The notes under the pieces are model-generated. The model worked only from the letters and a program-made list of their open reading frames with translations. It did no database searches and was not told where the DNA came from. Made by a program: the position numbers and the translations under genes. Positions 34,508 through 60,714 of a stretch of DNA of 64,000 nt are shown here, one piece after another; within the stretch, counting starts at the first letter, position 1, and every line of letters starts with the position of its first letter. The DNA is from Microbulbifer guangxiensis. GTDB lineage: Bacteria > Pseudomonadota > Gammaproteobacteria > Pseudomonadales > Cellvibrionaceae. The stretch lies in assembly GCF_021729075.1 (NCBI RefSeq), contig NZ_JAJSAQ010000003.1:248001-312000 (forward strand), given 5' to 3'.

Positions 34508-35578
34508 TTAGTTACTCTCGGCTGACAAGAGAGTCAGGTTAGGATCGCTGCTATCTGCAGTGAGGTCCAGGGCGGCAGCGATGGCCTTGAGGGTGTTGTC
34601 AGGGTCTGACAATTCGAAGGTTCCGGACAGTCGGCGGTCGGAAACGGAGGGCGCTGCCCGCGCCGGGACCGGCAGGTAGCGGTTGAGTTCTTCCAGGGCT
34701 TCCGCAAGCGGTGTGTCTTCGAAAACCAGTACGCCACGGGTCCAGTCCAGAGCCTCCTCGGGGGAGGTTCTGCCCACGTCGCCCATGCCGCTGCCGGAAA
34801 CACTGACTTTCTGGTTTTTAACCAGTTTGACGCTTTCCGGGGTCAGGCCGGGAGCGCTGGCAGCCTCACTGACTGCGACGGTACCGCCGGTGACGGATAC
34901 CCGGGTGTTGTCGGGATTGCGCTCGACATTGAATTCGGTTCCGAGAACACGGATGTTCGCCTTGCCCGCGGCAACGGTGAAGGGGCGGGCGGTCTGGCGT
35001 GCCACATCAAAGAAGGCCTCGCCCCGGCGCAGCTCGGTGTGGCGCTCATCGCGGGTGAAAGAGACTGCCAGTTCGGAATTGGTGTTCAGTTGCACCGTTG
35101 AACCATCGGCCAGGGTCACGGTCCGGGTCTCGCCAACGGCAGTGGCGTAAAGCTGCTGCTGAGGCGCTTCTCCGCCCAGCCACTGATTGCCGATCCACAG
35201 CGTCACTACCAGGCAGGCGGCCACCACGCCGCTGCCAAGCAGCCAGCGGGTCCAGTCTCTTTCGCTGGGCTCTTTATGCCCCCTATGCCCCTTATGCGGC
35301 TCTGCAGCGGCATGTTTACTGCGGCGGCGGGCGGCCGGGCTTGGCCGGCTCTCCGGGAAGAGGGTGTCGATCGGCATATGGCGCAGGGCACCCAGGTCGC
35401 CCCAGAGTTCGGCCATGGAGTCGAACGCCTCGCGATTCTCGCTGGAAGCCTGCATCCACTGGGCGAAGTTCCGGCGATCCGCTGCGGTGACATCGTCCGA
35501 GCGCAGGCGGGCGATCCAGGCGCAAGCCTGGTCCAGCCGATCTTCATTTTGTACTTCTTGTACGCCCGATGTGTTCAC
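34508..35578 (-). CDS. FecR-family anti-sigma / sigma regulator
   Basis: 356 residues: cytoplasmic N-terminal DUF4880 domain (about 12-65, with the family-type RRNFAQWMQASSENREAFD), a His/Lys linker (HKGHRGHKE), one transmembrane helix (about 112-130), the periplasmic FecR domain (about 143-240, GETRTVTLADGSTVQLNTNS) and a C-terminal STN/DUF4974-like part (about 285-350). It relays ligand binding at receptor 5 to the ECF sigma factor. The start is GTG 35578. It sits 128 nt upstream of the receptor but 397 nt from the sigma gene. Confidence 0.92.
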   Translation of the reverse strand: MNTSGVQEVQNEDRLDQACAWIARLRSDDVTAADRRNFAQWMQASSENREAFDSMAELWGDLGALRHMPIDTLFPESRPSPAARRRSKHAAAEPHKGHRGHKEPSERDWTRWLLGSGVVAACLVVTLWIGNQWLGGEAPQQQLYATAVGETRTVTLADGSTVQLNTNSELAVSFTRDERHTELRRGEAFFDVARQTARPFTVAAGKANIRVLGTEFNVERNPDNTRVSVTGGTVAVSEAASAPGLTPESVKLVKNQKVSVSGSGMGDVGRTSPEEALDWTRGVLVFEDTPLAEALEELNRYLPVPARAAPSVSDRRLSGTFELSDPDNTLKAIAAALDLTADSSDPNLTLLSAESN

Positions 35579-35975: not shown

Positions 35976-36500
35976 TCAGTCATTGTCAACCCGTCGCCGG
36001 CAGGCCTTGAGGGCCTGCAGAATGTATTTCTCGACGCTGCTGACGGAGGTATCCATTTCCTGGGCGATTTCCGTATAGGAAAGGCCGCGGGTCCGGTGCA
36101 GGAGGAACGCCTGGCGGCACTTCAATGGCAGGCTGTCCATGGCCTCATAAATAGACTGCAGCTGCTGGCGCGCCGCCAGCACCCGCTCGGGCGACTGATG
36201 GTCGGCGTGGTCATCGGTCACCGTTTCGCCCTCAGCCGGCATCTGCTGGCTGACGTATTCCGAGTGCAGCTTGCCGCGGCGCAGCTGGTCGACGGCCAGG
36301 TTGTTGGCAATCTGGTAGAGGTAGGCGCGGGGGTTCTCGAGTTCTTTCTCGTCGCTGAGCTTCTGCAGGCGGAGGTAGGCGTGCTGGGCGATGTCCTCAG
36401 CATCCTCGGTGTTGCGCACGATGCGCGCAACAAAGCGCACCAGCGCCTGCCCGTGTTCGGCAAACAGCTTTTCCAGAAGCGTCTTCCGAGCTCTGTTCAT
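35976..36500 (-). CDS. ECF RNA polymerase sigma factor, FecI-type
   Basis: 174 residues with sigma region 2 (about 10-80: DAEDIAQHAYLRL, NPRAYLYQIANNLAVDQLRR) and region 4 (about 115-170: LPLKCRQAFLLHRTRGLSYTEIAQEMDTSVSSVEKYI). This is the iron-starvation/FecI group. With the FecR and STN receptor genes downstream it forms a cell-surface signalling set: ligand on receptor 5 frees the sigma factor, which transcribes the receptor. Divergent from dnaX. Confidence 0.92.
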   Translation of the reverse strand: MNRARKTLLEKLFAEHGQALVRFVARIVRNTEDAEDIAQHAYLRLQKLSDEKELENPRAYLYQIANNLAVDQLRRGKLHSEYVSQQMPAEGETVTDDHADHQSPERVLAARQQLQSIYEAMDSLPLKCRQAFLLHRTRGLSYTEIAQEMDTSVSSVEKYILQALKACRRRVDND

Positions 36501-45709: not shown

Positions 45710-47191
45710 TCAGTTGTTGCCGCTGAAATGTTTCCGCGGTGCGCCCTCGTGGTCGGCGGTAATACCGATTTCTTCCTTGGTGGTCGGGCCCACTTCGGTG
45801 TGCCATTCCTCGGCGCCATGCATCCAGTCCACCAGTTTCTCGCGGATGAAGAACAGGATGATGCCGGCTCCGATGGCCGCAATGGCCACGCCACCGAAGG
45901 TGGCCAGCGGGCCGGATTCGCCCACCAGTTTACCGATCTCAGCCGCCCCTTTATTGGCGATGCCGATAAAGGCAAACCACAGCCCCATCATCAGTGACAG
46001 GTAGCGTAGCGGCGAGAGCTTGGTGACCATGGAGAGGCCGATGGGCGACAGGCACAGCTCGCCAATGGTGTGGAAAATATAGGCCAGCACCAGCCACCAG
46101 AGGCTGGCCTTGGCAGTCTCGGAATCGCCGATCTGCAGGGCGGCACCTACCATGGAAACGAAGCCGAGGCCGAGGAATATCAGGCCCATGCTGAACTTCC
46201 CGGGCGAGTTCGGTTCCCGGTCACCGAGTCCGACCCAGATACTGGCGATCACCGGCGCCAGGATGATGATGAACAGCGGGTTCACCATCTGCAGCCAGCT
46301 GGCCGGGATTTCGAAGCCGCCAACGTTCAGGTCGGTGTTGTATTTTGCAAACAGGTTCATCGAGCCCGCCGCCTGTTCAAAGCCGGCCCAGAAGATCACC
46401 GTGAACACACCGAGAATCAGAATCACCTTGATGCGGTCCCGTTCTTCGGTGGTGAGGGGCTTGTGCTTGTCGGCCACGTCCTGTTTGAGCCCAAGCTGGG
46501 CCGAGGGCTGGGTGCCGAGTACGCCGAGGTAGCGGTTGGCCTGGGTGAGCTGCAGCAGCAGGCCCAGGGCCATGCCGAGGCCGGCGACAAAGAACGCGAG
46601 CTGGTAGTCCACCTTTTCGCCGATCCAACCGATCACCAGGTAGCCGAGGATCGAGCCCAGGTTGATGCCCATGTAGAAGATGGTGAAAGCGGTATCGCGA
46701 CGCTTGTCCCCCTCCTCATAGAGGTCGCCCACCATGGTGGAGATGTTGGGTTTGAAGAAGCCGTTGCCGAGAATGAGCAGCGCCAGGCCCAGCCACAGCA
46801 TGTAGATTTCGGTACCGTCCGGTAGCCAGCTGTGGGGGAAGCCGAGGGCAAACTGGCCCAGCATCATCAGGGTGCCGCCAAACATGATGCAGCGTCGCTG
46901 GCCCCATTTGTTGTCTGCGACCCAGCCGCCGATGATGGGGGTGAGGTACACCAGCATGGCGTACCAGCCCAGGTAGCTGAGTGCCTTTGACTGGCGCTCC
47001 ACGTCCGATAACTGTTCCCAGCCAAAAGCGACTGCTGCCGCGGCCGAGGTGAGATAGAAGACGAAGATCCCGCGCATGCCGTAGTAACTGAGCCGCTCCC
47101 ACATCTCGGTGCCGAACAGCAGGAACAGTCCCTTGGGATGCCCCATCAGTTCGCCGGCATCTGCAGGGGGTCTTGGCTTGAAGTCTTGCAT
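45710..47191 (-). CDS. Proton-dependent oligopeptide (POT/PTR2) transporter
   Basis: 493 residues, second POT family member in the window. ExxER motif EMWER (29-33), SYYGMRGIFVFYL and the PTR2 signature FTIFYMGINLGSILGYL are present. About 14 hydrophobic segments. ATG 47191 has AGAGG upstream and starts at the point where similarity to the first transporter begins. The short C-terminus ends in a basic/acidic mixture. Divergent from hrpA; the intervening 178 nt hold both promoters. Confidence 0.9.
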   Translation of the reverse strand: MQDFKPRPPADAGELMGHPKGLFLLFGTEMWERLSYYGMRGIFVFYLTSAAAAVAFGWEQLSDVERQSKALSYLGWYAMLVYLTPIIGGWVADNKWGQRRCIMFGGTLMMLGQFALGFPHSWLPDGTEIYMLWLGLALLILGNGFFKPNISTMVGDLYEEGDKRRDTAFTIFYMGINLGSILGYLVIGWIGEKVDYQLAFFVAGLGMALGLLLQLTQANRYLGVLGTQPSAQLGLKQDVADKHKPLTTEERDRIKVILILGVFTVIFWAGFEQAAGSMNLFAKYNTDLNVGGFEIPASWLQMVNPLFIIILAPVIASIWVGLGDREPNSPGKFSMGLIFLGLGFVSMVGAALQIGDSETAKASLWWLVLAYIFHTIGELCLSPIGLSMVTKLSPLRYLSLMMGLWFAFIGIANKGAAEIGKLVGESGPLATFGGVAIAAIGAGIILFFIREKLVDWMHGAEEWHTEVGPTTKEEIGITADHEGAPRKHFSGNN

Positions 47192-47336
47192 GTCGGTACC
47201 TCTGACAGGCAATGGGCTTGGGAAAAAAGTTTTCCCTCGCGGGCTGGCGGGGGATGCAATTGCCTTGAGTATAGAACAGCGCCAAATGGGCTCCGGCAAC
47301 TCCCGGCGAGGATTTAGCCGCCAGTGGCGCAGCAGG

Positions 47337-47342
47337 TATAAT
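47337..47342 (+). promoter_or_regulatory. Candidate -10 box for hrpA
   Basis: TATAAT 27 nt before the hrpA ATG; TTTAGC 18 nt upstream of it is a weak -35 candidate. Confidence 0.45.
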
Positions 47343-47369
47343 GGCTGGTTTGCGGTCAGTTTGTGGATT

Positions 47370-50300
47370 ATGAGTCACTCCGAAGCCAACCCAGTCAACC
47401 AGGCCCGCCGGGCCCTGGACAGTCTCAGCGCCGAGTTTGATCAGCGCCTGGACCACTGCATGGGCCGCGACCGGTACCGCCTGCGCAAGGCGCTCGCCAA
47501 TGCACGGCGGCGGGTGAAATCCGGCAAGCCGGCAGACCGGATGCTCGAGCAGCTGCAACGTGACTTGCAGGCCTCTGCGGCGCTGGCCTCTGCGCGCCGC
47601 GAAAAGTTGCCGACAGTGACCTGGCCGGAGGAACTGCCGGTGGTTGCGCGCCGGGAGGAAATCGCCGCGCTGATCGCCGACCACCAGGTGGTGGTGGTCG
47701 CGGGTGAAACCGGCTCCGGCAAAACCACCCAGCTGCCCAAGATCTGCCTGGAGCTCGGTCGTGGGGTCTACGGTCAGATTGGTCACACGCAGCCGCGGCG
47801 AATCGCCGCGCGCACGGTGGCGAACCGCATCGCCGAGGAACTCAACCAGCCCCTGGGTCACTCGGTGGGTTACCAGGTGCGCTTCACTGACCACAGTGAC
47901 GAGCATACCCACGTCAAGCTGATGACCGACGGTATCCTGCTGGCGGAAATCCAGCGCGACCCGCTGCTGAACAAATACGACACCCTCATCATCGATGAGG
48001 CCCACGAACGCAGCCTCAATATCGACTTCCTCCTCGGTTATCTGAAGACCATCCTGCCCAAGCGCCCGGACCTGAAGCTGATCATCACCTCGGCGACCAT
48101 CGACCTGGAGAAGTTTTCCCGGCATTTCGACGATGCGCCGATCATCGAGGTTTCCGGTCGCACCTATCCGGTGGAAATCCATTACCGTCCACCCGCGGAC
48201 AGCGAGGCCGATCTCAACGAGCAGGTGATTGCCGCGGTCGACGAGCTGCTGCACGAGGAAAAGAGCAGCGGCCGCCGCGGGGGCGATATTCTCGTCTTCA
48301 TGAGTGGCGAGCGGGAAATCCGCGAGTGTGCCAAGGCCCTGCGGGACGCACAGATTCCACAACTGGAAGTGCTGCCACTTTATGCTCGGCTGAGCCTTGC
48401 CGAGCAGAACAGGGTTTTCCACGGGCACAAGGGCCGGCGCATCGTGCTGGCCACCAACGTGGCGGAAACCTCCATTACCGTACCCGGCATCCGTTACGTG
48501 ATCGATCCCGGCACCGCGCGCGTGAGCCGCTACAGCTACCGCAGCAAGATCCAGCGGCTCCCGGTCGAAGCGATCTCCCAGGCCAGCGCCAACCAGCGCG
48601 CCGGTCGCTGTGGGCGGGTCAGCGCCGGTGTCTGTGTGCGACTCTATGAAGAGCGCGATTTCGAGCAGCGGCCCGAATTTACCGATGCGGAAATATTGCG
48701 CACAAACCTGGCGGCGGTGATCCTGCAGATGCTGCAATTGCGCATTGGTGATATCCGCGATTTTCCCTTTGTGGATCCACCCGATGAGCGCCTGATCAAC
48801 GACGGTTACAAACTGCTGCAGGAACTGCAGGCCGTGGATGCCGGCGGCAAGGTCACCCAATTTGGCCGGGCACTGTCCCGTCTGCCGCTGGATCCGCGCC
48901 TTGGCCGCATGTTGATGGCAGCGGGGGACAACGACAGTTTGCGTGAGGTGTTGATCATCGTCAGCGCCCTGGCCGTGCAGGATCCGCGCGAACGCCCGGC
49001 AGAGAAACGCCAGGCGGCGGATGAAAAGCACCGCCAGTGGCAGCACGAGCAGTCGGACTTCGTCTCCTTCGTGCAGCTCTGGGATGCGTTTGAAGAGCAG
49101 CGCCAGGAGCTGAGCCAGAACCAGCTGCGCAAGTGGTGCCAGAAGAATTACCTGTCCTGGCTGCGCATGCGTGAGTGGCGGGACATACACCACCAGCTAC
49201 GGGTGGCTACCCGTGAACTGAAGCTGAAGGAAAACCGCGAGCCGGCTTCCTATGAGGCCATTCACCGGGCAATCCTGCCGGGGCTGCTTGGCAATATCGG
49301 TGTGCGTGACGAGAACAAGGAGTTCCTCGGCTGCCGTAACCGCCGCTTCCACATTTTTCCCGGCAGTGGCCAATTCAAGAAGCCGCCCCGCTGGGTCGTG
49401 GCTGCACAGCTGCTGGAGACCAGCCGCCTGTTTGCCCATACCGTCGCCCGCATCGAGCCGGACTGGGTGCTGGCAGTGTCAGAGCACCTGGTCAAGCGCG
49501 GCTACTCCGAACCGCATTACGATGCCCGTGGCGGCCGGGTGATGGCGTTCGAAAAGGTAACTCTGTACGGCCTGGTGCTGGTTGAAAAGAAACGCATTCA
49601 CTACGGCAAGCTGAATCCGCAAGTGGCGCGCGAGGTCTTTATCCGCCAGGCACTGGTTGAGCAGCGCTATCGCGGCAAGGGTCGGTTCTTCAAACACTAC
49701 CGGTCGCTGCTCGAGGAGCTGGAGGACCTGGAGGCCAAGTCACGCCGGCGGGATATCGTTGTCGACGACGAGGTGATCTTCCGCTTCTTCGATGAGCGGC
49801 TGCCGGAGGATATTGTCAACCTGGCGGGCTTCGAGCACTGGCGCAAGCAGGCGGAATCCCGCGATCCCGAATTGCTGATGATTCCACGGGACCTGCTGAT
49901 GCAGCAGAGCGCCGATCATATCGGCGAGGCGCAGTTCCCGGACACCCTGCAGACCGGCGGGATAGAGTTTCCGCTCAGCTATCACTTCGAGCCGGGTAGC
50001 CCGGAGGACGGGGTAAGCATCCGCGTACCGGTTGCGGCCCTGCATCAGGTGCCTGAAGCCCGGTTGTCGTGGCTGGTGCCAGGACTTCTGCGCGATAAAT
50101 GCATCGCCCTGGTGAAGGGGTTGCCCAAACAGTGGCGCAAATATTTTGTACCGGTGCCGGCCGCGGTGGACCGGGCATTGCCGAGGATGAAGCCGGACAA
50201 CACGCCCCTGTGGCAGGCGCTGGCGCTGGAGTTAAAGCGCCAGACGGCCCAAGAGCTGCCCGAGGAAGCCTGGGCCCGGGCTGAAAGCAGCCTGGAGGAT

Positions 50301-51320
50301 TTCTACCGTTTCAATATCCAGGTGCTGGATGAGTCCGGCAAGCGCCTCGACCAGGGGCGTGACCTGTCGCAATTACAGGAGCGCTACCGGGACCGAGTGC
50401 AGCGTGAGATCGCCACCGCCGGGGACGACTTCGAGCGGGAGGGCATCACCCTGTGGGATTTCGGTGACCTGCCGGAAACCCACACCATGGACCAGGGTGG
50501 CCTCAAGATGCGGGCTTATCCCGCGCTGGAAGACCGCGGGGACAGCGTGGCCCTGCGGCTGCTGGATAACCCGGCCGAAGCACGACGCACCAGCCGCGCC
50601 GGCATCTCCCGGCTGGCACTGCTGCACCTGCCCGAAAAAGTGAAATACCTGCGCAAGGAATTGCTACGCGGCAAGGAGCTGGGCCTGTCCGCCGCCGACC
50701 TGGGCCGCCGCGAGGAGGTGGCCGACGATATCATGCTGGCAGCAGCGAGAGAGCTGTTCTGGCCCGATGGGCAGTGGCCCCGAGCCGAGCGTGACTTCCT
50801 TGCGGCACTGGAGCGCCAGGAAAAATTCATCGAGGTCGCACAGGAAATTGCCGCGTTACTGGTCAGGGCGCTCGGTGATCTGGTGCCGCTGCGTAAGACA
50901 ATCAAGCAGCAGAAAAACCTTGCCGTTGCCATGGCGGTGGGAGATATCCAGCAGCAGCTGGCAGGTCTTTTCTATCGCGGTTTCCTGTTCGATACGCCTA
51001 TGGAGTGGCTGCGCCAGTATGGCCGTTACCTCAAGGGCATTTCCATGCGCCTCGAGAAGGCCGCACTGGATCCCAACCGTGACCGGCGCTTGCAAGCGGA
51101 GTATCAGGACGCCGCACAGCCGTTTATGGATTTGCTCGCGCAATACTCGCATCCGGCGCTGATGGCCGAGCCGGTACTGGTCGATTACCGCTGGATGCTG
51201 GAGGAATTCCGTATTTCGCTGTTTGCCCAGTCATTGAAGACCCTGATGCCGGTGTCGGTAAAACGACTGCGCAAGCAGTGGCAGGAAATCGAGCAGGCCG
51301 GTCTGCGCTTCTCCCAGTGA
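47370..51320 (+). CDS. hrpA: ATP-dependent RNA helicase HrpA
   Basis: 1316 residues, close to E. coli HrpA (1300). N-terminal helical region, then RecA domains with Walker A GETGSGKT (112-119), DEAH box (IIDEAHERSLN), SAT motif (ITSATI) and QRAGRCGR (motif VI), followed by winged-helix, ratchet and OB domains and the long C-terminal DUF3418 region typical of HrpA. Rescues collided or stalled ribosomes on mRNA in E. coli. ATG 47370 chosen; the upstream open frame runs through the divergent promoter. Confidence 0.95.
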   Translation: MSHSEANPVNQARRALDSLSAEFDQRLDHCMGRDRYRLRKALANARRRVKSGKPADRMLEQLQRDLQASAALASARREKLPTVTWPEELPVVARREEIAALIADHQVVVVAGETGSGKTTQLPKICLELGRGVYGQIGHTQPRRIAARTVANRIAEELNQPLGHSVGYQVRFTDHSDEHTHVKLMTDGILLAEIQRDPLLNKYDTLIIDEAHERSLNIDFLLGYLKTILPKRPDLKLIITSATIDLEKFSRHFDDAPIIEVSGRTYPVEIHYRPPADSEADLNEQVIAAVDELLHEEKSSGRRGGDILVFMSGEREIRECAKALRDAQIPQLEVLPLYARLSLAEQNRVFHGHKGRRIVLATNVAETSITVPGIRYVIDPGTARVSRYSYRSKIQRLPVEAISQASANQRAGRCGRVSAGVCVRLYEERDFEQRPEFTDAEILRTNLAAVILQMLQLRIGDIRDFPFVDPPDERLINDGYKLLQELQAVDAGGKVTQFGRALSRLPLDPRLGRMLMAAGDNDSLREVLIIVSALAVQDPRERPAEKRQAADEKHRQWQHEQSDFVSFVQLWDAFEEQRQELSQNQLRKWCQKNYLSWLRMREWRDIHHQLRVATRELKLKENREPASYEAIHRAILPGLLGNIGVRDENKEFLGCRNRRFHIFPGSGQFKKPPRWVVAAQLLETSRLFAHTVARIEPDWVLAVSEHLVKRGYSEPHYDARGGRVMAFEKVTLYGLVLVEKKRIHYGKLNPQVAREVFIRQALVEQRYRGKGRFFKHYRSLLEELEDLEAKSRRRDIVVDDEVIFRFFDERLPEDIVNLAGFEHWRKQAESRDPELLMIPRDLLMQQSADHIGEAQFPDTLQTGGIEFPLSYHFEPGSPEDGVSIRVPVAALHQVPEARLSWLVPGLLRDKCIALVKGLPKQWRKYFVPVPAAVDRALPRMKPDNTPLWQALALELKRQTAQELPEEAWARAESSLEDFYRFNIQVLDESGKRLDQGRDLSQLQERYRDRVQREIATAGDDFEREGITLWDFGDLPETHTMDQGGLKMRAYPALEDRGDSVALRLLDNPAEARRTSRAGISRLALLHLPEKVKYLRKELLRGKELGLSAADLGRREEVADDIMLAAARELFWPDGQWPRAERDFLAALERQEKFIEVAQEIAALLVRALGDLVPLRKTIKQQKNLAVAMAVGDIQQQLAGLFYRGFLFDTPMEWLRQYGRYLKGISMRLEKAALDPNRDRRLQAEYQDAAQPFMDLLAQYSHPALMAEPVLVDYRWMLEEFRISLFAQSLKTLMPVSVKRLRKQWQEIEQAGLRFSQ

Positions 51321-51669
51321 GCAGTGAGTCGCTGCTAGCCGGCCTTCAGTCGTACGGTGCAACTCGCACTCCACCCATGCAGGATGCCCGCCGCTGGCAG
51401 GGCTGGGCGGTACCGGGCTGGATGAAAAATGATCGCCTGCGACCAGAAATCGAATCAAAAACACGGTTGCTGTAACAACTACCGCTCAATAACGACTATT
51501 CAACCGGAGTCCGCTTAACGAATTGCCGGATTTGAGGCAACTTTACTGATACGTTGCGGGTCTCAGAACGTAACTGCCTGTGAGCAGGGCGCATTATACT
51601 GCCGGGAAGGCGGTGGAAAGCTCCGCCACGTGGCTATAAGACTTTAGGGTATTAAACAGGAGAATCGTT
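51321..51669 (+). promoter_or_regulatory. Upstream region of the copper-peptide operon
   Basis: 349 nt without a gene. GCATTATACT (TATACT 51595-51600) is a plausible -10, about 70 nt before the precursor start, with a poor -35. A GGCGG/CCGCC repeat follows near 51610. Copper-responsive ECF sigma control is known for related operons, but I cannot identify such a promoter with confidence. Confidence 0.4.
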
Positions 51670-51993
51670 ATGAACAAGAAGAATGTACCGCTTGCCGCTG
51701 CCGTTGGCGCCGCTTTCCTTGCGTCCGCGTCCCTGAACGTATCCGCCGGTATTGCCAGTGATGCCAATCCGTTCGCCGCCGAGAAGCTGTCCTCAGGTTA
51801 CAACCTGGCCGTCATGAGTGAGCACGGCTCTGACGACAAGAAGAAAGAGGGCAAGTGCGGCGAAGGTAAGTGTGGCGAGGAAGGCAAGAAAAAAGAAGGT
51901 AAGTGCGGCGAAGGCAAGTGCGGCGAAGAAGGCAAGAAGAAAGAAGGTAAGTGTGGTGAGGGTAAGTGCGGTGAGGGTAAGTGCGGCGGATAA
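51670..51993 (+). CDS. Bufferin/HvfA-type precursor peptide with seven EGKCG motifs
   Basis: 107 residues: signal peptide (about 1-26), a linker, then a Lys/Gly/Glu/Cys tail with EGKCG at 60-64, 65-69, 76-80, 81-85, 92-96, 97-101 and 102-106. At DNA level the tail is a 48-nt tandem repeat. In Haemophilus HvfA the Cys of EGKCG motifs is converted to an oxazolone-thioamide that binds copper, and related bufferins protect against copper. Genes for the DUF692 enzyme and DUF2063 partner follow. Strong ribosome site (AGGAGA). Exported to the periplasm by inference. Confidence 0.92.
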   Translation: MNKKNVPLAAAVGAAFLASASLNVSAGIASDANPFAAEKLSSGYNLAVMSEHGSDDKKKEGKCGEGKCGEEGKKKEGKCGEGKCGEEGKKKEGKCGEGKCGEGKCGG

Positions 51994-52012
51994 ACCGTTT
52001 GCTTTCACTTGT

Positions 52013-52033
52013 CCGGGGGCGTCATGCCCCCGG
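52013..52033 (+). promoter_or_regulatory. Stem-loop between precursor and maturase genes
   Basis: Perfect 8-bp stem CCGGGGGC / GCCCCCGG with a GTCAT loop, 20 nt after the precursor stop, no T-run. Could protect the precursor mRNA or lower read-through into the enzyme genes. Confidence 0.55.
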
Positions 52034-52100
52034 TACCTGCCACCCTCTTTCCGGTGCCATCTAGCCCGCGGCCAGTCGATGACATTCCAGAGCGTCAACC

Positions 52101-52967
52101 ATGAGTAGTGCTGACCAAAGAGCATTCCCCGTCGAGGGCGCAGGCCTCGGTTTGCGTCGCTCCATGATGGGCGAGGAAGTATCACCGGAGCACATCGATT
52201 TTCTCGAAGTGGCCCCGGAGAACTGGATCGGCGTGGGGGGGCGCTTCGGACGCTGGCTGCGGGAGCAGACCGAACGTTTCCCGTTTGTGACCCACGGCCT
52301 GTCTCTGTCCATCGGCTCCCCCGCGCCTCTCGATATGGATTTGGTACGCTCGATCAAGGCATTTATCCGTGAGCACGACATCCGCTGTTACAGCGAGCAC
52401 CTGAGCTACTGTTCGGACCACGGCCATCTGTATGACCTGTTGCCGATCCCCTTCACGGAAGAGGCGGTGCGTTACGTGGCGGAGCGTATCCGCCGGGTGC
52501 AGGATACCCTCGGTCAGCGCATCGCCATGGAGAACGTTTCCTATTACGCAGCCCCTGGCCAGGAGATGACCGAGCTCGACTTCATTACCGCGGTTCTGGA
52601 GGCGGCGGATTGTGACCTGCTGCTGGATGTGAACAACATTTACGTCAACAGTATCAATCATCGTTACGATCCCGTGGACTTTCTGCGCGGGTTGCCGGGG
52701 GAACGTATCGCTTACGTTCACGTGGCCGGACATTATGACGAGGCGGAAGATCTCAAGGTCGATACGCACGGTGCGCCGGTCATCGGTCCGGTGTGGGCGT
52801 TGCTGGAGGAGGCCTACCGGCTGCACGGCGCCCTGCCCACGCTACTGGAGCGCGACTTCAATATCCCGCCGCTGCCAAAGCTGTTCGAGGAGGTGGCGCA
52901 GATCCGCGAGATCCAGTCCCACGTCCAGCCCCAAATACAACGCAAGGCACAATATGCGCACCGCTGA
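52101..52967 (+). CDS. DUF692 multinuclear iron-dependent oxidase (HvfB/BufB-type)
   Basis: 288-residue TIM-barrel enzyme of the DUF692/MNIO family (MbnB, TglH, HvfB). Candidate iron ligands are all visible: His65 (VTHGLSLS), His100 (CYSEHLSY), Glu144 (IAMENVSYY), Asp176 and Asn179 ([10 protein letters not shown]), His207 and His211 (VHVAGH), Asp221 and His223, Glu250 (LLERDFN). Expected to oxidise Cys residues of the upstream precursor, yielding copper-binding groups, with O2 and its partner. Overlaps the next gene by 14 nt. Confidence 0.92.
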
Positions 52968-53730
52968 CGGAAAAGCAGCGAAAGGCGCGCAGTTCCAGCA
53001 GATGCAGCGGGAGTTTGCCGCCCACCTGCGCAATCCCCGCGAGCACGCGCCGCCCGCCGAGATCGAGGATCGTCGCCTCGCCATCTACCGCGACCTGATT
53101 TACAACAATATCGAGTCTTTTATTGCCAGCGGCTTCCCGGTTTTGCGCAAGCTCTACAGTGATAGTGACTGGCATGCGATGGTGCGTGACTTCGTTCACC
53201 GCCATGCCTCCCAGAGCCCTTATTTCCTGCAGATCAGTGAGGAGTTCCTGCACTACCTGCAGAGCGAGCGCGAGCCGCACCCCTGCGATCCGCCGTTCCT
53301 GCTGGAGCTGGCCCATTACGAGTGGGTGGAGCTGGCACTGGATGTCAGTGATGCCGAAATGCCGCAGGGCCTGAAGCGGGAGGGAGATGTGCTGGCCGGG
53401 GTGCCGGTGGTATCCCCGCTGGTTTGGAGCCTGAATTACCGCTTTCCGGTCCACCAGATCGGTCCCGCCTTCCAGCCCGAAGAGGCGCCGGATGCGCCCA
53501 CCTTCCTGCTGGTCTACCGCGACCGGAGCGATGCCATCAGCTTTATGGAGACCAATGCGGTCACGGCGCGGCTGTTGCAGCTGGCGCAGGGCGAGGAGAC
53601 AACCGGTCGCGAACTGCTGCTGGCGCTTGCCGGTGAGATGAACCACCCGGATCCGGAAGTTTTACTGCAATTCGGGCGGGATCTGCTGGAAAAACTGCTG
53701 AGCGCCGGTATCATCGCCGGGCTGCGCTGA
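52954..53730 (+). CDS. DUF2063 partner protein (HvfC/BufC-type)
   Basis: 258 residues. The N-terminal DUF2063 domain (about 12-105: FAAHLRNP ... [24 protein letters not shown]) is followed by a second alpha/beta part. Members bind the precursor leader and dock it to the DUF692 enzyme. ATG 52954 lies inside the end of the DUF692 gene; the open frame further upstream is the shadow of that gene. Translational coupling keeps the two in a fixed ratio. Confidence 0.9.
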
Positions 53731-53864
53731 GAGAGCGCAGCATCGAAAAAACGGGTGCTTTTGGCCGAAAAAACAGGCCGACTGCTATGCTGCCAAGGGT
53801 GGCTCCCGCTTGCCCCGGGCGGTAAAATCTTTCCACTTCCATGATTTGTCACAGGAGCAGGGTT

Positions 53865-54872
53865 TTGCTGGGACGCACAAATGGTTTGCCCTCACTGACA
53901 CTGTCGGTACTGCTGGCACTGCCACTGACTGCCTTTGGTCAGGATGACCCGTTCGCCGAGGTGCCGCCAGAAAATCTGCCGGCTACGGAGCAGTCGACTC
54001 CGGCAGGTACGGATGAAGACAGCGCCGAAGCCGATGCTGCCGCAACGGTAGATGGCCCGGATGACGGTGACGAGAGCTCGGACAGCAGCCCGGCGACGGA
54101 TACCGGCGGTTCCCTCGAGGATGAGTACGGTTTCGATCCCGCAGCGGAGTTTGGCGGCCAGGAGGATTCTGCCACCCAGGATCCCTGGGAAGACGTCAAT
54201 CGCGCCATCTTTCGCTTCAATGACACCGCCGATCGCTGGGTCCTGAAGCCTCTCGCGGTGACCTACCGCGAAGTCACCCCGATTTTCATGCAGCACGGGG
54301 TCAGCAACTTCTACGGCAACCTGCTCGAAGTCACCAATTCCCTCAACAGTGCCCTGCAGTGGAAATGGGGGCAGGCCGGCAATGATGCCGGTCGTTTCCT
54401 GATCAACAGCACCGTGGGTGTGGTGGGCCTGTTCGATGTGGCCCAGCACTGGGGGCTCGAGCCCAATGATGGAGAGGATTTCGGCCAGACCCTGGCAGTC
54501 TGGGGAGTACCGGCGGGGCCCTATGTGGTGCTGCCGTTCCTGGGCCCGTATACGCTGAGGGATGTCCCCGGCGGTTGGGTGGATGTCTATACCAACCCCA
54601 TTTACTACATCGATCACAACCCCACCGAGTATGCTTTCCGCTTCGGTGACCTGGTGCAGACGCGTGCCAGCTATCTGAAGACCGAGTCCCTGCTGCAGGG
54701 GGACCGCTATGTACTACTGCGGGATGCCTACCTGCAGCGGCGCGAGTTCCTGATCAATGACGGTGCTTCCTCCACCGACACCGACGACGATGCCGACACC
54801 GCTGAAGGTGATGGCGATGAGACCGGTGAGGCTGAAACAGAAAGCGAAGTCGACGACCCCTTTGCCTTCTGA
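53865..54872 (+). CDS. mlaA: MlaA/VacJ-family phospholipid transport protein
   Basis: 335 residues. The MlaA domain (about 105-290) has DPWEDVNRAIFRFND, FYGNLLEVTNSLNS, GRFLINSTVGVVGLFDVA, EDFGQTLAVWGVPAGPYVVLPFLGPYTLRD and the DNYxDP-like region. It removes phospholipids from the outer leaflet of the outer membrane. The likely start is TTG 53865, 7 nt after AGGAG. The signal peptide ends LTAFGQDD with no lipobox Cys, and the mature protein has no Cys at all; family members are usually lipoproteins. Long acidic segments lie before (about 30-95) and after the domain. Confidence 0.9.
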   Translation: MLGRTNGLPSLTLSVLLALPLTAFGQDDPFAEVPPENLPATEQSTPAGTDEDSAEADAAATVDGPDDGDESSDSSPATDTGGSLEDEYGFDPAAEFGGQEDSATQDPWEDVNRAIFRFNDTADRWVLKPLAVTYREVTPIFMQHGVSNFYGNLLEVTNSLNSALQWKWGQAGNDAGRFLINSTVGVVGLFDVAQHWGLEPNDGEDFGQTLAVWGVPAGPYVVLPFLGPYTLRDVPGGWVDVYTNPIYYIDHNPTEYAFRFGDLVQTRASYLKTESLLQGDRYVLLRDAYLQRREFLINDGASSTDTDDDADTAEGDGDETGEAETESEVDDPFAF

Positions 54873-54904
54873 AGAAACAATAACGACCAGGTTGGGTTGA
54901 CCCT

Positions 54905-56086
54905 ATGGGCGAGCGCCAGTCACTGCTGTTGATCGAGGCCGACCAGCCCTCCCGCGATTTTGTCAGGCAGGCCCTGGTGCGCCAGGGCTTCGCGGTGACT
55001 ACCGCGCAGAGCGGCCTCGAGGGAATCGGCCAGTTTGCGCCGGGCCTGTTCCAGCTGGTGGTCACTGACCTGCATCTGCCGGACATGGGCGGCCTCGAAG
55101 TGCTGCGCAAGATCAAGCAGGCCTGTCGGGAGACGCCCGTGGTGGTCCTCGCCTCCAACAGCCAGGTCAACGATGTGGTCCAGGCGCTGCGTCTGGGGGC
55201 CAGCGATTACCTGCTCAAGCCGATCGAAGACGAAACCGTCATCGAACATGCGGTGTCCCGCATCACCGAAGCCCAGAAACTGGCGCGGGAAAACCGCGAG
55301 TATCGCGAGGCGCTGGAGCGGCGCAACCGGGAACTGCGGGATCATGTGGAAGTGCTGCAACGGGACCAGGAGGCCGGCCGGCTGTTGCAGCAGCACCTGT
55401 TGCCCCGTACCCCCTATCAGTATCCGGCCGGGATCGAGGCCGCCTATCGGCTGGTCCCCTCTCTCTTTCTCAGCGGCGATTTCATCGATTACGGCCTGTT
55501 CGGGGAGCGCTTTGTCGCCTTCTACCTTGTCGATGTTTCCGGGCATGGGGTGTCATCGGCACTGGTCACCGCATTGATCAAGCACAGCATCATGCACCTG
55601 TTGCGTGAGCGCCCCCTGTTTACCCACCTGGATACCCTTCACGACGACCTGCTGGAAATCCTGCAGACCATCAACCGGGAGTTGCTCGCCACACGGCTCG
55701 ACAAGCACGCCACTATGTTTGTCGGCGCCATCGACAGTCGCGCCCGCAAGTTGCACTACGCGGTGGCCGGACAGGTGCCGACGCCGGCGCTGGTGACCGG
55801 ACACGGGGCGGAATGGCTGCCGGGCAAAGGGCGTCCGCTGGGGTTGTTCGAGCAGGGCAACTGGCAGGTACTCGAGGCTGCATTGCCGAGTACCTGGAGC
55901 CTGGTGGCCTGTTCCGATGGTGTGCTGGAGCTGTTCAGTGGCGACCTGCTGGAACGGGAGCAGCAGCTGCTGACTGCCATCGACAAGAGCCGCGGGGACC
56001 TGGACAGCCTCTGTTCGGCGCTGCGGGTGGATACATCGGACGCGCTGCCGGACGATGTGACCATTCTCACCCTGCGCCAGAGTTGA
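54905..56086 (+). CDS. Response regulator with PP2C/SpoIIE phosphatase domain (RssB-like)
   Basis: 393 residues: receiver domain (1-125; acidic Glu11/Asp13, phospho-Asp55 in VVTDLHLPD, Lys in YLLKPIE), coiled coil (about 130-170), then a PP2C_SIG phosphatase (about 185-390) with SGDFID, VDVSGHG and DDVTILTL metal motifs. It should dephosphorylate a STAS partner, encoded next. Length and neighbours (mlaA, STAS, tal) match the P. aeruginosa RssB/RssC region linked to RpoS. No HATPase kinase domain, unlike HsbR. Confidence 0.9.
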   Translation: MGERQSLLLIEADQPSRDFVRQALVRQGFAVTTAQSGLEGIGQFAPGLFQLVVTDLHLPDMGGLEVLRKIKQACRETPVVVLASNSQVNDVVQALRLGASDYLLKPIEDETVIEHAVSRITEAQKLARENREYREALERRNRELRDHVEVLQRDQEAGRLLQQHLLPRTPYQYPAGIEAAYRLVPSLFLSGDFIDYGLFGERFVAFYLVDVSGHGVSSALVTALIKHSIMHLLRERPLFTHLDTLHDDLLEILQTINRELLATRLDKHATMFVGAIDSRARKLHYAVAGQVPTPALVTGHGAEWLPGKGRPLGLFEQGNWQVLEAALPSTWSLVACSDGVLELFSGDLLEREQQLLTAIDKSRGDLDSLCSALRVDTSDALPDDVTILTLRQS

Positions 56087-56290
56087 ATAAGAGGCTGACT
56101 AAGCGGTCCACAACGGGTGGGGCAAATGCTTGTCACTCCCGGGTCGCAGGAGTAAGCTCCGCCCGATTTACAGTCAAAAGTGTGGGATTCGGCGGTAGTA
56201 ACGGCTGATATCGCACACAGGCAATGTGAACTTTCGCCACTTCTGTAGTGATCGCCAGAGTGCGGCACGGCGGAGGTGCCAGAGGTTGTT

Positions 56291-56809
56291 ATGCAGTCCG
56301 GGCAAATAATGGTCGGTGCCCACGAGGGTATCTACGTCATCAAGCTGGTTGGCGATGTGCGGCTTAACCTCTGTACCTCGTTCGATAACTTTATCGACAG
56401 CATGTTTCAGCACGATGACTTCGATGATGTCGTGTTTGATCTTCATGGCGCCAAAGGCGTCGACAGCACAACGCTCGGCCTGATGGCCAAGATCGCCATC
56501 CGTGCCCTCGAGCGCGGTTGCGAAAAGCCGTTGGTGCTGACCACCGACCAGGGCATTCACCACCTGCTCGATGCCATGGGTTTCGATGCCCTGATCGAGA
56601 TCAGTGAAGAGCACCGGGATTACGCCGCTGACCCGAAACCCCTGAAGTGCAAGACCCCGGATGAGTGCGCCGCGCGTGAGAAAGTGCTGGAAGCGCACCG
56701 GGTGCTGATGAGCATGAACGAGCACAATGCGGAGACTTTCCGCGATCTGGTCCACACCCTCGAGCGCGAGTGCGATCCCCTCGACAGTCCCTCCACCCGC
56801 ATGCATTGA
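56291..56809 (+). CDS. STAS-domain anti-sigma factor antagonist (RssC-like)
   Basis: 172 residues. STAS fold in the first 110, with GVDSTTLGLMAKIA holding the expected phosphorylatable Ser59. A charged C-terminal helical tail (about 115-172) is specific to this subgroup. ATG 56291 has AGAGG 5 nt upstream; GTG 56276 is less likely. 204 nt after the phosphatase gene. It would switch partners according to its phosphorylation state. Confidence 0.88.
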   Translation: MQSGQIMVGAHEGIYVIKLVGDVRLNLCTSFDNFIDSMFQHDDFDDVVFDLHGAKGVDSTTLGLMAKIAIRALERGCEKPLVLTTDQGIHHLLDAMGFDALIEISEEHRDYAADPKPLKCKTPDECAAREKVLEAHRVLMSMNEHNAETFRDLVHTLERECDPLDSPSTRMH

Positions 56810-56847
56810 TGTGGCAGGCGGCCCCGGCTGCCTGACTCTGTCCCGTT

Positions 56848-57309
56848 TTATTTGAGCTTGGCCATTTCCCTGGCCTCCGCGCGCGCGCGGGTGAAGAGTC
56901 CGTGGGGCAGGTAAACAAGATCCGCCACCCGGCGGATCAGGTGTTCCTCAAAGGGCTCGATGGTGCCGTCGGCCAGCGCCACCTGCCACATTTGCCGCAC
57001 CAGCAGGTATTTGTCCCGGTCGTCGAATTCCCGGTTTACCGTCTGGGTGAACTCGTACAGGGAAGTGGCATCCTCACGGTGCCCGAGCGCCTCCTCCACC
57101 AGTGCGCCGGCTTCATCGGCCTCGAGCCGGTAATGCTGCTGCAGTACAGAAACCAGTGTCTCCCGCTCACGCACGTCCAGCTCGTGATCCACCGTAGCCA
57201 CCTCTGCCAGCAGGGCGGCGCTGATCATGCGCAGGTCCGACGCATCGCGCTTTTCGATGTCCTCGCTGTCGCCGATCTGATCGAACAGTTTACGGATTTG
57301 TCGCAGCAT
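56848..57309 (-). CDS. TerB-family protein
   Basis: 153 residues with the acidic TerB-like helical pattern: [28 protein letters not shown] and a second copy [25 protein letters not shown]. The DHE.D and DGTIEPFEE acidic clusters suggest metal binding. No known reaction. ATG 57309 lies 20 nt inside the end of tal, so translation is coupled. Confidence 0.85.
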
Positions 57310-58267
57310 CGCGGGTCGTATGCTCCTTCGCCTGTTGCAGGAGCAGCTGCTCCAGCTGGTCCTGATCGTGGACAAAGTTGCGGATGCCCTCGGCCAGTTT
57401 TTCAGTGGCCATGGCGTCCGCGTTCAGCTGGTAGCGGAACTCCGCTTCTGTCAGCGCGTGGGTGGGGCGTTCTTCCGGGGCCACCTGCTCCGGCAGGCCG
57501 CTGGCCAGGGTGCCGGTATCCTCCTCCAGGGCCTGCAGCAACTGCGGGCTGATGGTGAGGCGGTCGCAGCCGGCCAGGGCCTCGATCTCGCCGGTATTGC
57601 GGAAGCTTGCTCCCATCACCACCGTCTCGTAGCCGCGGGCTTTGTAATACTGGTAGATGCCCCGCACCGAGGCCACACCGGGATCCTCTTCCGCGGTGAA
57701 ATCCCTGCCGCTGTTGGCCTTGTGCCAGTCCAGGATACGGCCCACGAACGGCGAAATCAGCGTGACCCCGGCCTCGGCGCAGGCGACCGCCTGGCAGAAA
57801 CTGAAGAGCAATGTCAGGTTGCAGCGAATACCCTCGCGCTCGAGGATGCCGGCAGCGGTGATGCCCTCCCAGGTGGACGCGACCTTGATCAGTACGCGCT
57901 CGCGCCCGATACCGGCCTGCTGGTAGAGGTGGATCAGCTGCCGTGCATATTCCACCGTGGCGCGGGTATCGAACGAGAGACGTGCGTCCACCTCGGTGGA
58001 GACCACCCCCGGCACTATCTCCAGGATCTCGGCACCGATGGCCACGGCGAGCTTCATCGCCGCCAGCCGGCCGCGCTCACCGCTGTGCCGGTCTGCCCAT
58101 GCCAGGGCGTCGATGAGATAGGGCTGGTACTGGGGCAACTGGGCCGCCTTGTAGAGGAGTGAGGGGTTGGTGGTGGCGTCGTGGGGGCGATAGCGCCGGA
58201 TTGCCTCGATATCGCCGGTATCGGCCACCACCAGGCTGCGCTGCCGCAATTGCTCCAGTTTGTTCAT
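57290..58267 (-). CDS. tal: Transaldolase
   Basis: 325 residues. Pentose phosphate enzyme (EC 2.2.1.2), class I. Schiff-base Lys128 in [19 protein letters not shown] near residue 30 and [29 protein letters not shown] are diagnostic of the TalB group. Good ribosome site AAGGAAG. Followed by overlapping terB. Confidence 0.96.
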
Positions 58268-58336
58268 CTCACTTCCTTTCGTTTACTTATCTTACTTATC
58301 GGCGCTACCAGCAAAATGCCGCGCGCTGTAGCGGGA

Positions 58337-59350
58337 TCAGGCTGCCTGGGTCACGAGGGACAGGGCCTCCCGCATCACCTCGGGACCTGCGCCGGGCTTG
58401 TGGGCGTTCTCGCTCAGGTGGCGCCGGAAGCGCCTCGCGCCGGGTACCCCCTGGAAAAGTCCCAGCATATGGCGGCTGATGTAGTTCAGTCGCGCGCCGC
58501 CGCTCATTTGCTGCTCGATGTAGGGCAACATCTGCTCGACCACCTCGACCGGGGACGGGCCGGGATTGTCGCCAAACAGGTGGCTGTCCACCTGCGCCAG
58601 GATCACGGGGTTCTGGTAGGCGGCGCGCCCCAGCATAACACCATCGAGCTGCTGCAAATGTTGCTCGCATTCCTCCAGCGAATTGATGCCGCCGTTGAGC
58701 ACGATTTCCAGCTGGGGAAAATCCCGCTTCAGCTGGTAGACCATGTCGTATTTCAGTGGCGGTATCTCCCGGTTTTCTTTCGGGCTGAGGCCGTTCAGCC
58801 ACGCCTTGCGCGCGTGCACGATGAAGGTGTTAATCCCGACCGCCGCCTGGGCCTCGACGAATGTGGTGAGACCGGCGTAGTCCTCCATGTCATCGATGCC
58901 GATACGGTGCTTGACGGTCACCGGGATGGAGACGGCCTCGCGCATGGCCGCCAGGCAGTCTGCCACCAGTGCGGGCTCGGCCATGAGGCAGGCGCCGAAG
59001 CGGCCGGATTGCACCCGGTCACTGGGGCAGCCGCAGTTCAGGTTCACTTCGCTATAGCCCCACTGCTCGGCCAGCTGGGCGCACTGCGCCAGGTCTTTCG
59101 GGTCGCTGCCGCCGAGCTGCAGTGCCACCGGCTGCTCCTCGGGACTGAAGTCCAGGTGCCGCGCCCGGTCCCCGAACAGCAGGGCGCCGGTGGTGACCAT
59201 TTCCGTATACAGGGTGGCGCGCTTGCTCAGCAGGCGCCAGAAATAGCGGCAGTGACGGTCACTCCAATCCATCAGCGGCGCGGTGCAGAACCGGTGGGAA
59301 ACGGCCCTCGAAGTATCACTCGGGGATTGTGGGGAGGGAGACTCGGGCAT
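58337..59350 (-). CDS. dusA: tRNA-dihydrouridine(20/20a) synthase DusA
   Basis: 337 residues. FMN TIM barrel with [46 protein letters not shown] (catalytic Cys in NCGCPS), [16 protein letters not shown] and NGGINS; these are DusA-specific. The start at 59350 is set by a TATAAT at 59388-59393 that overlaps the next upstream ATG (59389); no clear ribosome site precedes it. Co-directional with tal downstream. Confidence 0.94.
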
Positions 59351-59387
59351 ACAGACAGTGTGTTCGGACAGCAGAGTGTGTCCGCGC

Positions 59388-59393
59388 ATTATA
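59388..59393 (-). promoter_or_regulatory. Promoter of dusA
   Basis: TATAAT on the - strand, with TTACGG 18 nt upstream as -35. It places the transcript start about 30 nt before ATG 59350. Confidence 0.55.
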
Positions 59394-59508
59394 GGGGAAG
59401 GGACTCATCGGCCGTAACCGGCGGAGAAGGCGCTGAGAGCTTTTAGGGCTTTGCCGGGCGCTTCAGCGGGCAGTATCCCTCTGCCCTTCATCCTGGCCCG
59501 GCAATTCC

Positions 59509-60714
59509 CTAGTGATTTTCCTTCTCGGAGCGGTTCGGACTGCTCGCCGTGGTGCACTCGCCCGGCTGGTCCGGCTCGGCGGAGTCCAGTGTCGGACGCA
59601 GCGTCTTGACGATTTTCCGCGCCGTGGCCCGATAGCTGGTCAGCTTGCCGCCGGCAACGGCCAGAACCCGTGGTCGCCGCGAGTTGTCGCAGCAGATCAG
59701 CGTGTCGCGGGGCCGCGAGAAGGGGGTGTCTTTTGATTGTGGCAGCACCCGCAGCCCTGCCCAGCTGTCGCAGATATCTTTGCCGCGCAGTTGCCGGGTC
59801 TGGGGGAAATAACGCTGCACCGTCTGCAGCAGGTATTGCTCTTCTTCCAGTGTCGGGGCTACGTCGCGGGGATCGCCCCGGTAGCTGCGTTCGGTGGTGC
59901 CCACCAGGGTCCTGCCCTGCCAGGGCATCACGAAGATGGCTCGGCCATCCTCTGCCTCGACATAGAAAATCTTGTCGCCCAGGGAAATGGGCAGTTCGAT
60001 ATGGGTGCCGGCCACCAGCTCCAGCGGCGGCAGCGGCACCTGGGGTGCACAGCGGTCATTGGTATTGCTGACCCAGGGACCGCTGCAATTCACCAGCACC
60101 CGGGCGCGCAGGGTGTTCAGCTGGCCATCGGCCACATAGTCCACGCGCATCCCCTGGCTGGTGAGCTCGGCACCGACGAGGCTGCCGGGGCAGATCAGCT
60201 GCGCCCCCCTGGCAACGGCGGACTCCACGACGTTGCGTGTCAGTGCGGCGTCATCCGTCTGCGCATCGTAATAGCGATAGACTGCAATCAGGTCCTCGTG
60301 GACCAGGCCGGAGAGCTGTTCCCATTCGCGGCGGGGTACCGAGCGGAATCGGGACTGGCCGCTGATCACTCCGGCCAGCAGGGCGTAGAGGGTCAGCCCC
60401 AGGCGCACGGTCCAGGGCGAGCGACGGCTGTGGCGGTAGACCGGGATGTAGAACGGCACCATGCGCACCAGCTGCGGCTTGTTCATCAGCAGCCAGCGCC
60501 GCTCACGCAGGCATTCATACACCAGGTGGAACTGGCCGCTCTCCAGGTAGCGAAGCCCACCGTGAATCAGCTTCGACGAGCGGGACGAGGTGGCTGCGGC
60601 AATGCCAATCTGTTCGAGGATGGCTACCCGGTAGCCGGCCTCGGCCAGCGCCTCTGCCGCCCCGGCACCCTGGATGCCGGCACCGACCACCAGGACATCA
60701 AAATCCGTAGACAT
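59509..60714 (-). CDS. FAD-dependent glycerol-3-phosphate dehydrogenase-like oxidoreductase
   Basis: 401 residues. FAD Rossmann GxGxxG at VVGAGIQGAG (9-18), then ATSSRSSKLIHGGLRYLESGQFHLVYECLRERRWLL, the GlpD signature. LVNCSGPWV, GTHIELP and GGKLTSYR follow. About 100 residues shorter than GlpD; the C-terminal helical domain is missing and replaced by a short polar tail. Membrane-peripheral. Its start overlaps the end of the GDPD-like gene by 17 nt, so the pair is one operon for glycerol-phosphate metabolism by inference. Confidence 0.8.
   Translation of the reverse strand: MSTDFDVLVVGAGIQGAGAAEALAEAGYRVAILEQIGIAAATSSRSSKLIHGGLRYLESGQFHLVYECLRERRWLLMNKPQLVRMVPFYIPVYRHSRRSPWTVRLGLTLYALLAGVISGQSRFRSVPRREWEQLSGLVHEDLIAVYRYYDAQTDDAALTRNVVESAVARGAQLICPGSLVGAELTSQGMRVDYVADGQLNTLRARVLVNCSGPWVSNTNDRCAPQVPLPPLELVAGTHIELPISLGDKIFYVEAEDGRAIFVMPWQGRTLVGTTERSYRGDPRDVAPTLEEEQYLLQTVQRYFPQTRQLRGKDICDSWAGLRVLPQSKDTPFSRPRDTLICCDNSRRPRVLAVAGGKLTSYRATARKIVKTLRPTLDSAEPDQPGECTTASSPNRSEKENH

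Follow-up and report, generated by a model that had tools for sequence, protein, structure and literature searches.

A predicted ECF-sigma promoter ties the mmrABC copper-peptide operon of Microbulbifer to an unlinked HvfX-type DoxX gene

The operon at 51670–53730 of the window (the whole 64-kb stretch of DNA that was analysed) is an EGKCG captophorin (HvfABC) operon, the published mmrABC of Microbulbifer, and its core finding is already in print. Judged from promoter sites and gene content, mmrABC, an HvfX-type DoxX gene and a methionine sulfoxide reductase gene (MsrA) most probably belong to one envelope oxidative-stress regulon, governed by an ECF sigma factor and a ZAS-type anti-sigma, that would be silent until stress, rather than to a sponge driven by a copper sensor. 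New here are the ECF link, the scattered parts of the regulon and the unlinked DoxX partner; similar regulons have been described in Haemophilus and Neisseria.

The cluster was characterized by Tang et al. (2025, PMC12538549), who, in the parts of their paper covered here, report mmrABC (the bulbicupramide BGC) in all Microbulbifer strains studied, with 5 to 8 Cys in EGKCG units, and describe for the Microbulbifer sp. VAAF005 system a loss of 4 H per Cys, Cu(I) binding and a tentatively assigned thiooxazole. Bulbicupramide was placed in the captophorin class by Gadgil et al. (2026, PMC13097082), and a 5-thiooxazole has been assigned to related peptides (PMC13097082; PMC13419390), which makes the oxazolone-thioamide chelator proposed in a sequence-only reading of this DNA outdated. 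In the same parts of PMC12538549, mmrABC slightly aided E. coli at 2 mM copper, no MmrA–C protein was detected at 0, 0.1 or 0.2 mM added copper, contrary to the copper induction expected from the sequence, and the authors are hesitant about a copper-protection role. The published puzzle is a cluster conserved through the genus, yet not seen to be expressed and not copper-responsive. The words sigma, ECF, DoxX, promoter and hypochlor are absent from the main text of that paper, and no report of an ECF link in Microbulbifer was found in the openly accessible literature, which leaves out most subscription papers.

The mmrABC operon and its setting

The three genes lie on the plus strand in the order precursor, MNIO (DUF692) enzyme and DUF2063/HvfC partner (Table 1). 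The assignment to the HvfABC-type copper-peptide operons, already made from the sequence, is confirmed by the HvfB model NF003818, the HvfC model NF050145 and Pfam matches. MmrB scores 441.2 against NF003818 (cut-off 360) and 348.9 bits against PF05114 (cut-off 25), and falls under the cut-off of the BufB model NF050167 (261.6 versus 310). Its relative in the PDB is 3bww (E 4e-73), with which the DVNN and VDTHG stretches align. MmrC scores 333.5 against NF050145 (cut-off 142) and has a PDB relative in 3dee (E 2.3e-10). The two enzyme genes overlap by 14 nt (52954–52967), as first described.

Table 1. Features of the mmrABC locus (positions in the window)
Feature	Coordinates	Strand	Description
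Predicted ECF-sigma promoter	51471..51496	+	TGTAACAA...CGAC, i.e. TGTAA-N17-CGAC; 199 nt ahead of mmrA start
Second, sigma70-like -10 (TATACT)	51595..51600	+	75 nt ahead of mmrA start; putative function
mmrA/hvfA precursor	51670..51993	+	107 aa; signal-peptide-like N-terminus, ANPF...SSGYNLA leader, seven EGKCG
EGKCG core	51847..51987	+	Three KKKEGKCGEGKCG cassettes, the last with one additional 15-nt motif
mmrA–mmrB hairpin	52013..52033	+	8-bp stem, 5-nt loop, no T-run
mmrB/hvfB MNIO (DUF692) enzyme	52101..52967	+	PF05114, NF003818
mmrC/hvfC DUF2063 partner	52954..53730	+	Read from ATG at 52954; PF09836 and PF22106

The precursor MmrA matches the NCBIfam motif domain NF050137 at 63.4 bits (cut-off 19.5). 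Its score against the HvfA equivalog NF050188 is 44.5, below the cut-off of 95, and it is therefore classed as an EGKCG-type precursor and not as HvfA proper. MmrA has no Pfam match up to E 0.01, and hence no DUF2282. The count of seven EGKCG motifs behind a signal peptide agrees with the original description, the signal peptide being called by eye.

The operon is flanked on one side by the 3' end of a helicase gene (Pfam DUF3418 and helicase domains), which we take to be of HrpA type, and on the other by mlaA. Downstream of mlaA, at 54905–56809, a response regulator with a SpoIIE phosphatase domain is followed by a STAS-domain gene, a possible partner-switching pair. The nearest named relatives of the window's genome are Microbulbifer species, with MmrB 85% identical to that of M. 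flavimaris (among the best 80 of 200 named loci). MmrB has a relative of at least 76% identity in 47 of 48 genus genomes (counting that of the window), so the operon is not a chance arrangement. An Rfam scan of 46000–60000 gave no match at gathering scores, and a tRNA scan of the 64-kb window found none.

The hairpin between mmrA and mmrB recurs across species despite widely differing sequence: 44 of 45 genus mmrA–mmrB intergenic regions contain a stem at least as strong as -15 kcal/mol, whereas single-base shuffles do so in 13% of cases and coding controls in 4 of 45. It may set the output of the precursor above that of the enzymes.

Comparison with published systems places the operon among the captophorins. 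It shares with the mmrABC of Tang et al. (PMC12538549), as far as that paper was covered, the genus, the three gene families and the three-cassette EGKCG precursor design, and differs in species and in having seven motifs. Obligate conservation of the cluster among its strains is stated there; the 48 species genomes compared here include one with an HvfC remnant alone and one with a two-Cys precursor. The minimal three-gene EGKCG operon also resembles those of fontiphorin and other captophorins (PMC13097082), fontiphorin likewise having seven modified Cys; no promoter or regulon is described in the part of that account covered. In Haemophilus influenzae (PMC13419390, in part), HvfX is the DoxX-like protein of the hvf operon; the system here passes the HvfB, HvfC and HvfX cut-offs and has EGKCG pairs as there, but its HvfX gene is unlinked instead of lying within the operon, and its precursor stays under the HvfA equivalog cut-off. 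Bufferins Buf1 and Buf2 also combine an MNIO with a DUF2063 protein, and sigma genes are reported in Buf1 clusters (PMC12452194, in part), but here the BufB model is not reached and the precursor has no DUF2282.

The EGKCG repeat array

The seven motifs, first taken as one contiguous row, are grouped in cassettes as 2+2+3. Tandem Repeats Finder reports a period of 48 with 2.9 copies, 85% matches and a score of 210 at 51837–51976. Seven is an ordinary number for the genus: across 45 genomes the EGKCG count is 3 (one genome), 4 (three), 5 (four), 6 (eighteen), 7 (five), 8 (thirteen) or 10 (one).

The window's three cassettes differ pairwise at 5, 7 and 6 of 39 nt, and are 1–5 nt away from their positional counterparts in the two nearest species. 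These two species have six motifs each; the extra one in the window is a 15-nt copy that closes the array, so that the seventh motif looks like the product of a 15-nt duplication. That the array is a contingency locus, in which slippage changes copy number and tunes capacity, is consistent with the range of 3 to 10 motifs, the single 15-nt gain in the window's lineage and the published 5 to 8 Cys (Tang et al. 2025, PMC12538549, in part); it is nevertheless improbable, given that cassettes within a genome are nearly as divergent as those between genomes (4.30 versus 5.12 of 39 nt) and that identical neighbouring cassettes occur in just 2 of 45 genomes, in a comparison made between species. The repeat count in relatives, proposed as a check of copy number change by 48-nt slippage, upholds the variation in number between species and lends little to the slippage, of which the window's array bears no fresh 48-nt trace; from the alignments, fast 48-nt slippage is not supported here.

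One precursor departs from this design. In genome G036 (L125:2507–2920) it has two Cys motifs only (EGKCG and EGNCG) together with Met/His-rich repeats (EGMQHG), in an operon otherwise complete with three genes; this genome has no gene for the ECF sigma described below, no promoter site and no HvfX. By its sequence, this precursor may be a natural case of Met/His metal binding taking the place of the thiooxazole.

A predicted ECF-sigma promoter upstream of mmrA

When the regions upstream of mmrA are aligned across the genus, conservation is largely limited to the ribosome site, a TATA-type -10 and one more distal element. This last, TGTAA-N17-CGAC, is found in 36 of 45 scored genus genomes and with an N18 spacer in one further, whereas single-base shuffles give an expectation of 0.445 genomes. 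A fixed spacing block between GGTCT and TATA, also suggested by the alignment, did not hold as a pattern.

In the whole genome of the window the element occurs at 12 sites (42 for the reversed control pattern). Four of the 12 lie just upstream of a same-strand gene, namely mmrA, a DoxX gene, a periplasmic-looking MsrA and a TVP38-type gene, and the remaining eight are inside genes or have no same-strand gene just downstream, the assignments being our own reading of the surrounding frames. The background is one site per 401,536 strand-bases, counted in the operon flanks of 16 named loci among the best 80 of 200. An earlier background from random windows of fetched loci (1115/20000) was dropped, many of these loci being centred on sites, and the operon-flank count is used instead.

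The layout of the element matches the published Neisseria sigma-E consensus, in which a -35 GTMAGBWTT, a 12–13 nt spacer and a -10 CGTCTAAH amount to GTMA-N17/18-CGTC (PMC7907618, PMC2893595 and PMC3240639, each in part), with one -10 base changed (CGAC here, CGTC there).

The sigma factor, HvfX and other predicted regulon members

The candidate regulator is an unlinked ECF sigma gene at C1:855100–855792 of the window's genome, whose product scores 250.4 against TIGR02943 (cut-off 162.2). It is preceded by the N18 version of the site and overlapped by a neighbour encoding a zinc-finger anti-sigma, which matches the ZAS-type model NF052368 at 80.9 (cut-off 50) and zf-HC2 at 37.9 (cut-off 22.2). 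A different ECF sigma gene lies in the window itself (35976–36500, minus strand), followed by a gene read by eye as FecR-like (34508–35578, minus strand) and a large ORF (31482–34379); the 12 exact N17 sites of the genome all lie away from this locus (35976–36500, 34508–35578).

The sequence-only reading had remarked that no DoxX gene was attached to the operon. This stands for the neighbourhood, since the 64-kb window has no DoxX gene beside mmrABC, but is misleading for the genome: three DoxX-family genes are found on other contigs, one of which (P0004) exceeds the HvfX cut-off (NF050144, 209.7 versus 80) and carries the same promoter site. The ‘missing’ DoxX partner is therefore unlinked rather than absent, and it is predicted to be co-regulated with mmrABC. 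Among the best 80 of 200 named loci, with flanks of up to 6 kb (shorter at contig ends), HvfX adjoins the operon in 0 of 16 from the Microbulbifer group and in 27 of 64 others. In the window's genome the shared ECF promoter stands at all four of the sigma, hvf, DoxX (HvfX) and msr genes.

A TVP38-type membrane gene and a flavin disulfide-reductase-like gene lie under the site at L134 (C2:182574–183441), in the window's genome and its two nearest relatives among others. TVP38 was demoted as a core member of the regulon, the site being present at 6 of 24 ECF+ copies; the pair is perhaps a recent recruit.

Joint presence and absence within the genus

The particular ECF sigma gene is present in 38 of 48 genus genomes (ECF+). 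In all 37 scorable ECF+ genomes the site precedes mmrA (with N18 in one), compared with none of nine ECF- genomes. The upstream region was first scored in 45 of the 48, leaving out G013 (no mmrA), G036 (fewer than three KCG) and G018 (contig end inside mmrA); G036, examined separately, has no site and joins the eight ECF- genomes first scored, and G018 is the unscorable ECF+ genome.

With spacers of N16–18 allowed, the site is upstream of the ECF gene itself in 38 of 39 genus copies, of HvfX in 35 of 38 ECF+ versus 1 of 7 ECF- genomes, of MsrA in 15 of 23 versus 0 of 3, and of TVP38 in 6 of 24 ECF+ copies versus 0 of 5. The absence of the site from 8 of the 23 MsrA and 18 of the 24 TVP38 genes of ECF+ genomes counts against a full regulon. 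The exceptions at HvfX are G039, which has no ECF gene yet keeps the site, and three ECF+ genomes without it. HvfX is absent from three genomes, all of them ECF- (G013, G014 and G036). G013, the tenth ECF- genome, has lost the operon and has no close HvfX; between its helicase gene and mlaA (L130:3035–3657) all that remains is an HvfC remnant containing an in-frame stop. Eight of the ten ECF- genomes retain the three operon genes without the site, which implies that the operon can run by other means. The genome-wide N17 count averages 14.5 in the 38 ECF+ and 9.1 in the 10 ECF- genomes, kinship being ignored.

On a tree of MmrB and MmrC, built without G013 and representing a gene rather than a species history, the ECF state changes six times, with at least three changes forced by well-supported branches and gain not distinguished from loss. 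Three independent pairs on well-supported branches are all concordant (p 0.25, the lowest that three pairs can give); the promoter-site labels were taken from the earlier scoring, so that this concordance replays the same observation and is no fresh test. The ECF absence in G033 may reflect missing data, its assembly being 80% complete, and the in-frame stops reported in three ECF copies leave the conserved part of the protein unbroken.

The sigma factor and its site outside Microbulbifer

Beyond the genus, the ECF gene is found (E 1e-30) in 15 of 96 genomes of the wider family, and all 15 loci were inspected. In five (L301, L302, L303, L307 and L308) the ECF and anti-sigma genes are near an EGKCG-type precursor and HvfX, and in all five the site is directly upstream of the precursor/HvfX transcription unit; L308 has a second site facing the ECF gene. 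The fetched stretches of L301 and L308 contain the full set of ECF, anti-sigma, HvfX, precursor, MNIO and HvfC, and those of L302, L303 and L307 neither MNIO nor HvfC. In the other ten loci the ECF gene has no EGKCG operon next to it: one has an HvfX ~3.8 kb off, one a distant MNIO, one a TVP38 with the site, and in seven the fetched stretch contains none of these genes. Only 3 of the 15 loci have the strict site ahead of the ECF gene itself, so autoregulation through the exact site is a trait of the genus.

Among the non-Microbulbifer named operons (L018–L081, 64 loci from the best 80 of 200), the strict site was found at 0 of the 49 with a findable precursor, one of which had just 80 nt upstream; the other 15 were excluded by the rule of at least three KCG. 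The wiring is therefore lineage-specific.

Discussion

The proposed mechanism is as follows. The ECF sigma factor at C1:855100–855792 would read TGTAA-N17/18-CGAC and be kept inactive by the overlapping ZAS-type anti-sigma until envelope stress frees it. The freed factor would raise together its own gene, mmrABC, the unlinked HvfX-type DoxX gene and the periplasmic-looking MsrA, with transcription of mmrABC starting from the predicted ECF-sigma promoter. At every Lys-Cys of MmrA, MmrB and MmrC would then build a copper(I)-binding thiooxazole, as published for a relative; export of the product would probably depend on its signal peptide. An ECF regulon that is off without stress would account for the failure of added copper to bring out mmr products.

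Published regulons give this scheme its closest precedents (PMC7907618, PMC2893595 and PMC3240639, each in part). Haemophilus RpoE2/HrsE and Neisseria sigma-E/MseR likewise pair an ECF sigma with a ZAS-type anti-sigma and include a methionine sulfoxide reductase, and the Haemophilus RpoE2 regulon also has DoxX and MNIO/DUF2063 genes; unlike in either, the target genes are scattered in Microbulbifer. RpoE2 of H. influenzae is required for hypochlorite induction of doxX and three neighbours, including a DUF2063 gene, and from their domains we infer that this cluster is the hvf genes. Meningococcal sigma-E operon transcripts were found only with rpoE overexpression or loss of the anti-sigma.

A further step is to place the mmr cluster primarily outside copper tolerance, as an ECF/ZAS stress effector triggered by reactive halogens or other oxidants, candidate triggers being hypohalous acids (hypobromous or hypochlorous) of host origin, with sponges, corals or algae as the hosts. 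Together, HvfX, MsrA and the thiooxazole peptide would then curb copper-catalysed oxidative damage in the periplasm or act as an oxidant sink. We put this forward tentatively and hold it to be more doubtful than the regulon itself. A point against the oxidative-stress regulon as a whole is the report that oxidative stimuli did not alter Neisseria sigma-E expression (PMC7907618, PMC2893595 and PMC3240639, in the parts covered).

The conserved TATA-type -10 would suit a housekeeping, low-level copper store run from a sigma70-like promoter, to which the ECF site adds little. All 37 ECF+ regions have TATA[AC]T within 260 nt of mmrA, 33 of them between -68 and -83, and so do 7 of 8 ECF- regions, though at scattered distances. 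Such a store is unlikely all the same: MmrA–C was undetected in growing cells (PMC12538549, in part), every scorable ECF+ genome has a spacing-exact ECF site, and the ECF- genome G036 has no TATA[AC]T -10.

The site might instead be read by a different factor whose presence or absence tracks the ECF gene. Co-occurrence by itself cannot name the reader, the genome has 11 other sigma-region-4 matches (some of them response regulators by sequence), and the scarcity of the strict site before the ECF gene in other genera leaves some room. We give this little credence in view of the site before nearly every genus ECF copy, as with an autoregulated ECF factor, the five other-genus loci that join ECF, site and hvf genes, and the fit to the Neisseria sigma-E promoter.

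A plain copper-detoxification sponge driven by a sensor of CueR, CopR or CsoR type, with an incidental ECF-like site, would fit the Cu(I) binding of the modified MmrA-derived peptide and the slight help to E. coli (PMC12538549, in part), but is very unlikely beside the silence of MmrA–C at each copper level in those parts of the paper, the co-occurrence of ECF site and ECF gene, and the absence from all 45 upstream regions of four simple and crude copper-sensor dyad patterns.

The regulon under the ECF/ZAS pair, by naming the sigma and anti-sigma genes, an exact promoter and an unlinked HvfX, makes the published puzzle testable: deletion of one small gene should turn the pathway on. The unlinked HvfX is also a warning that genome mining by neighbourhood only overlooks partner genes. 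If true, the regulon would carry the association of captophorins with envelope oxidative stress beyond human pathogens and into marine commensals.
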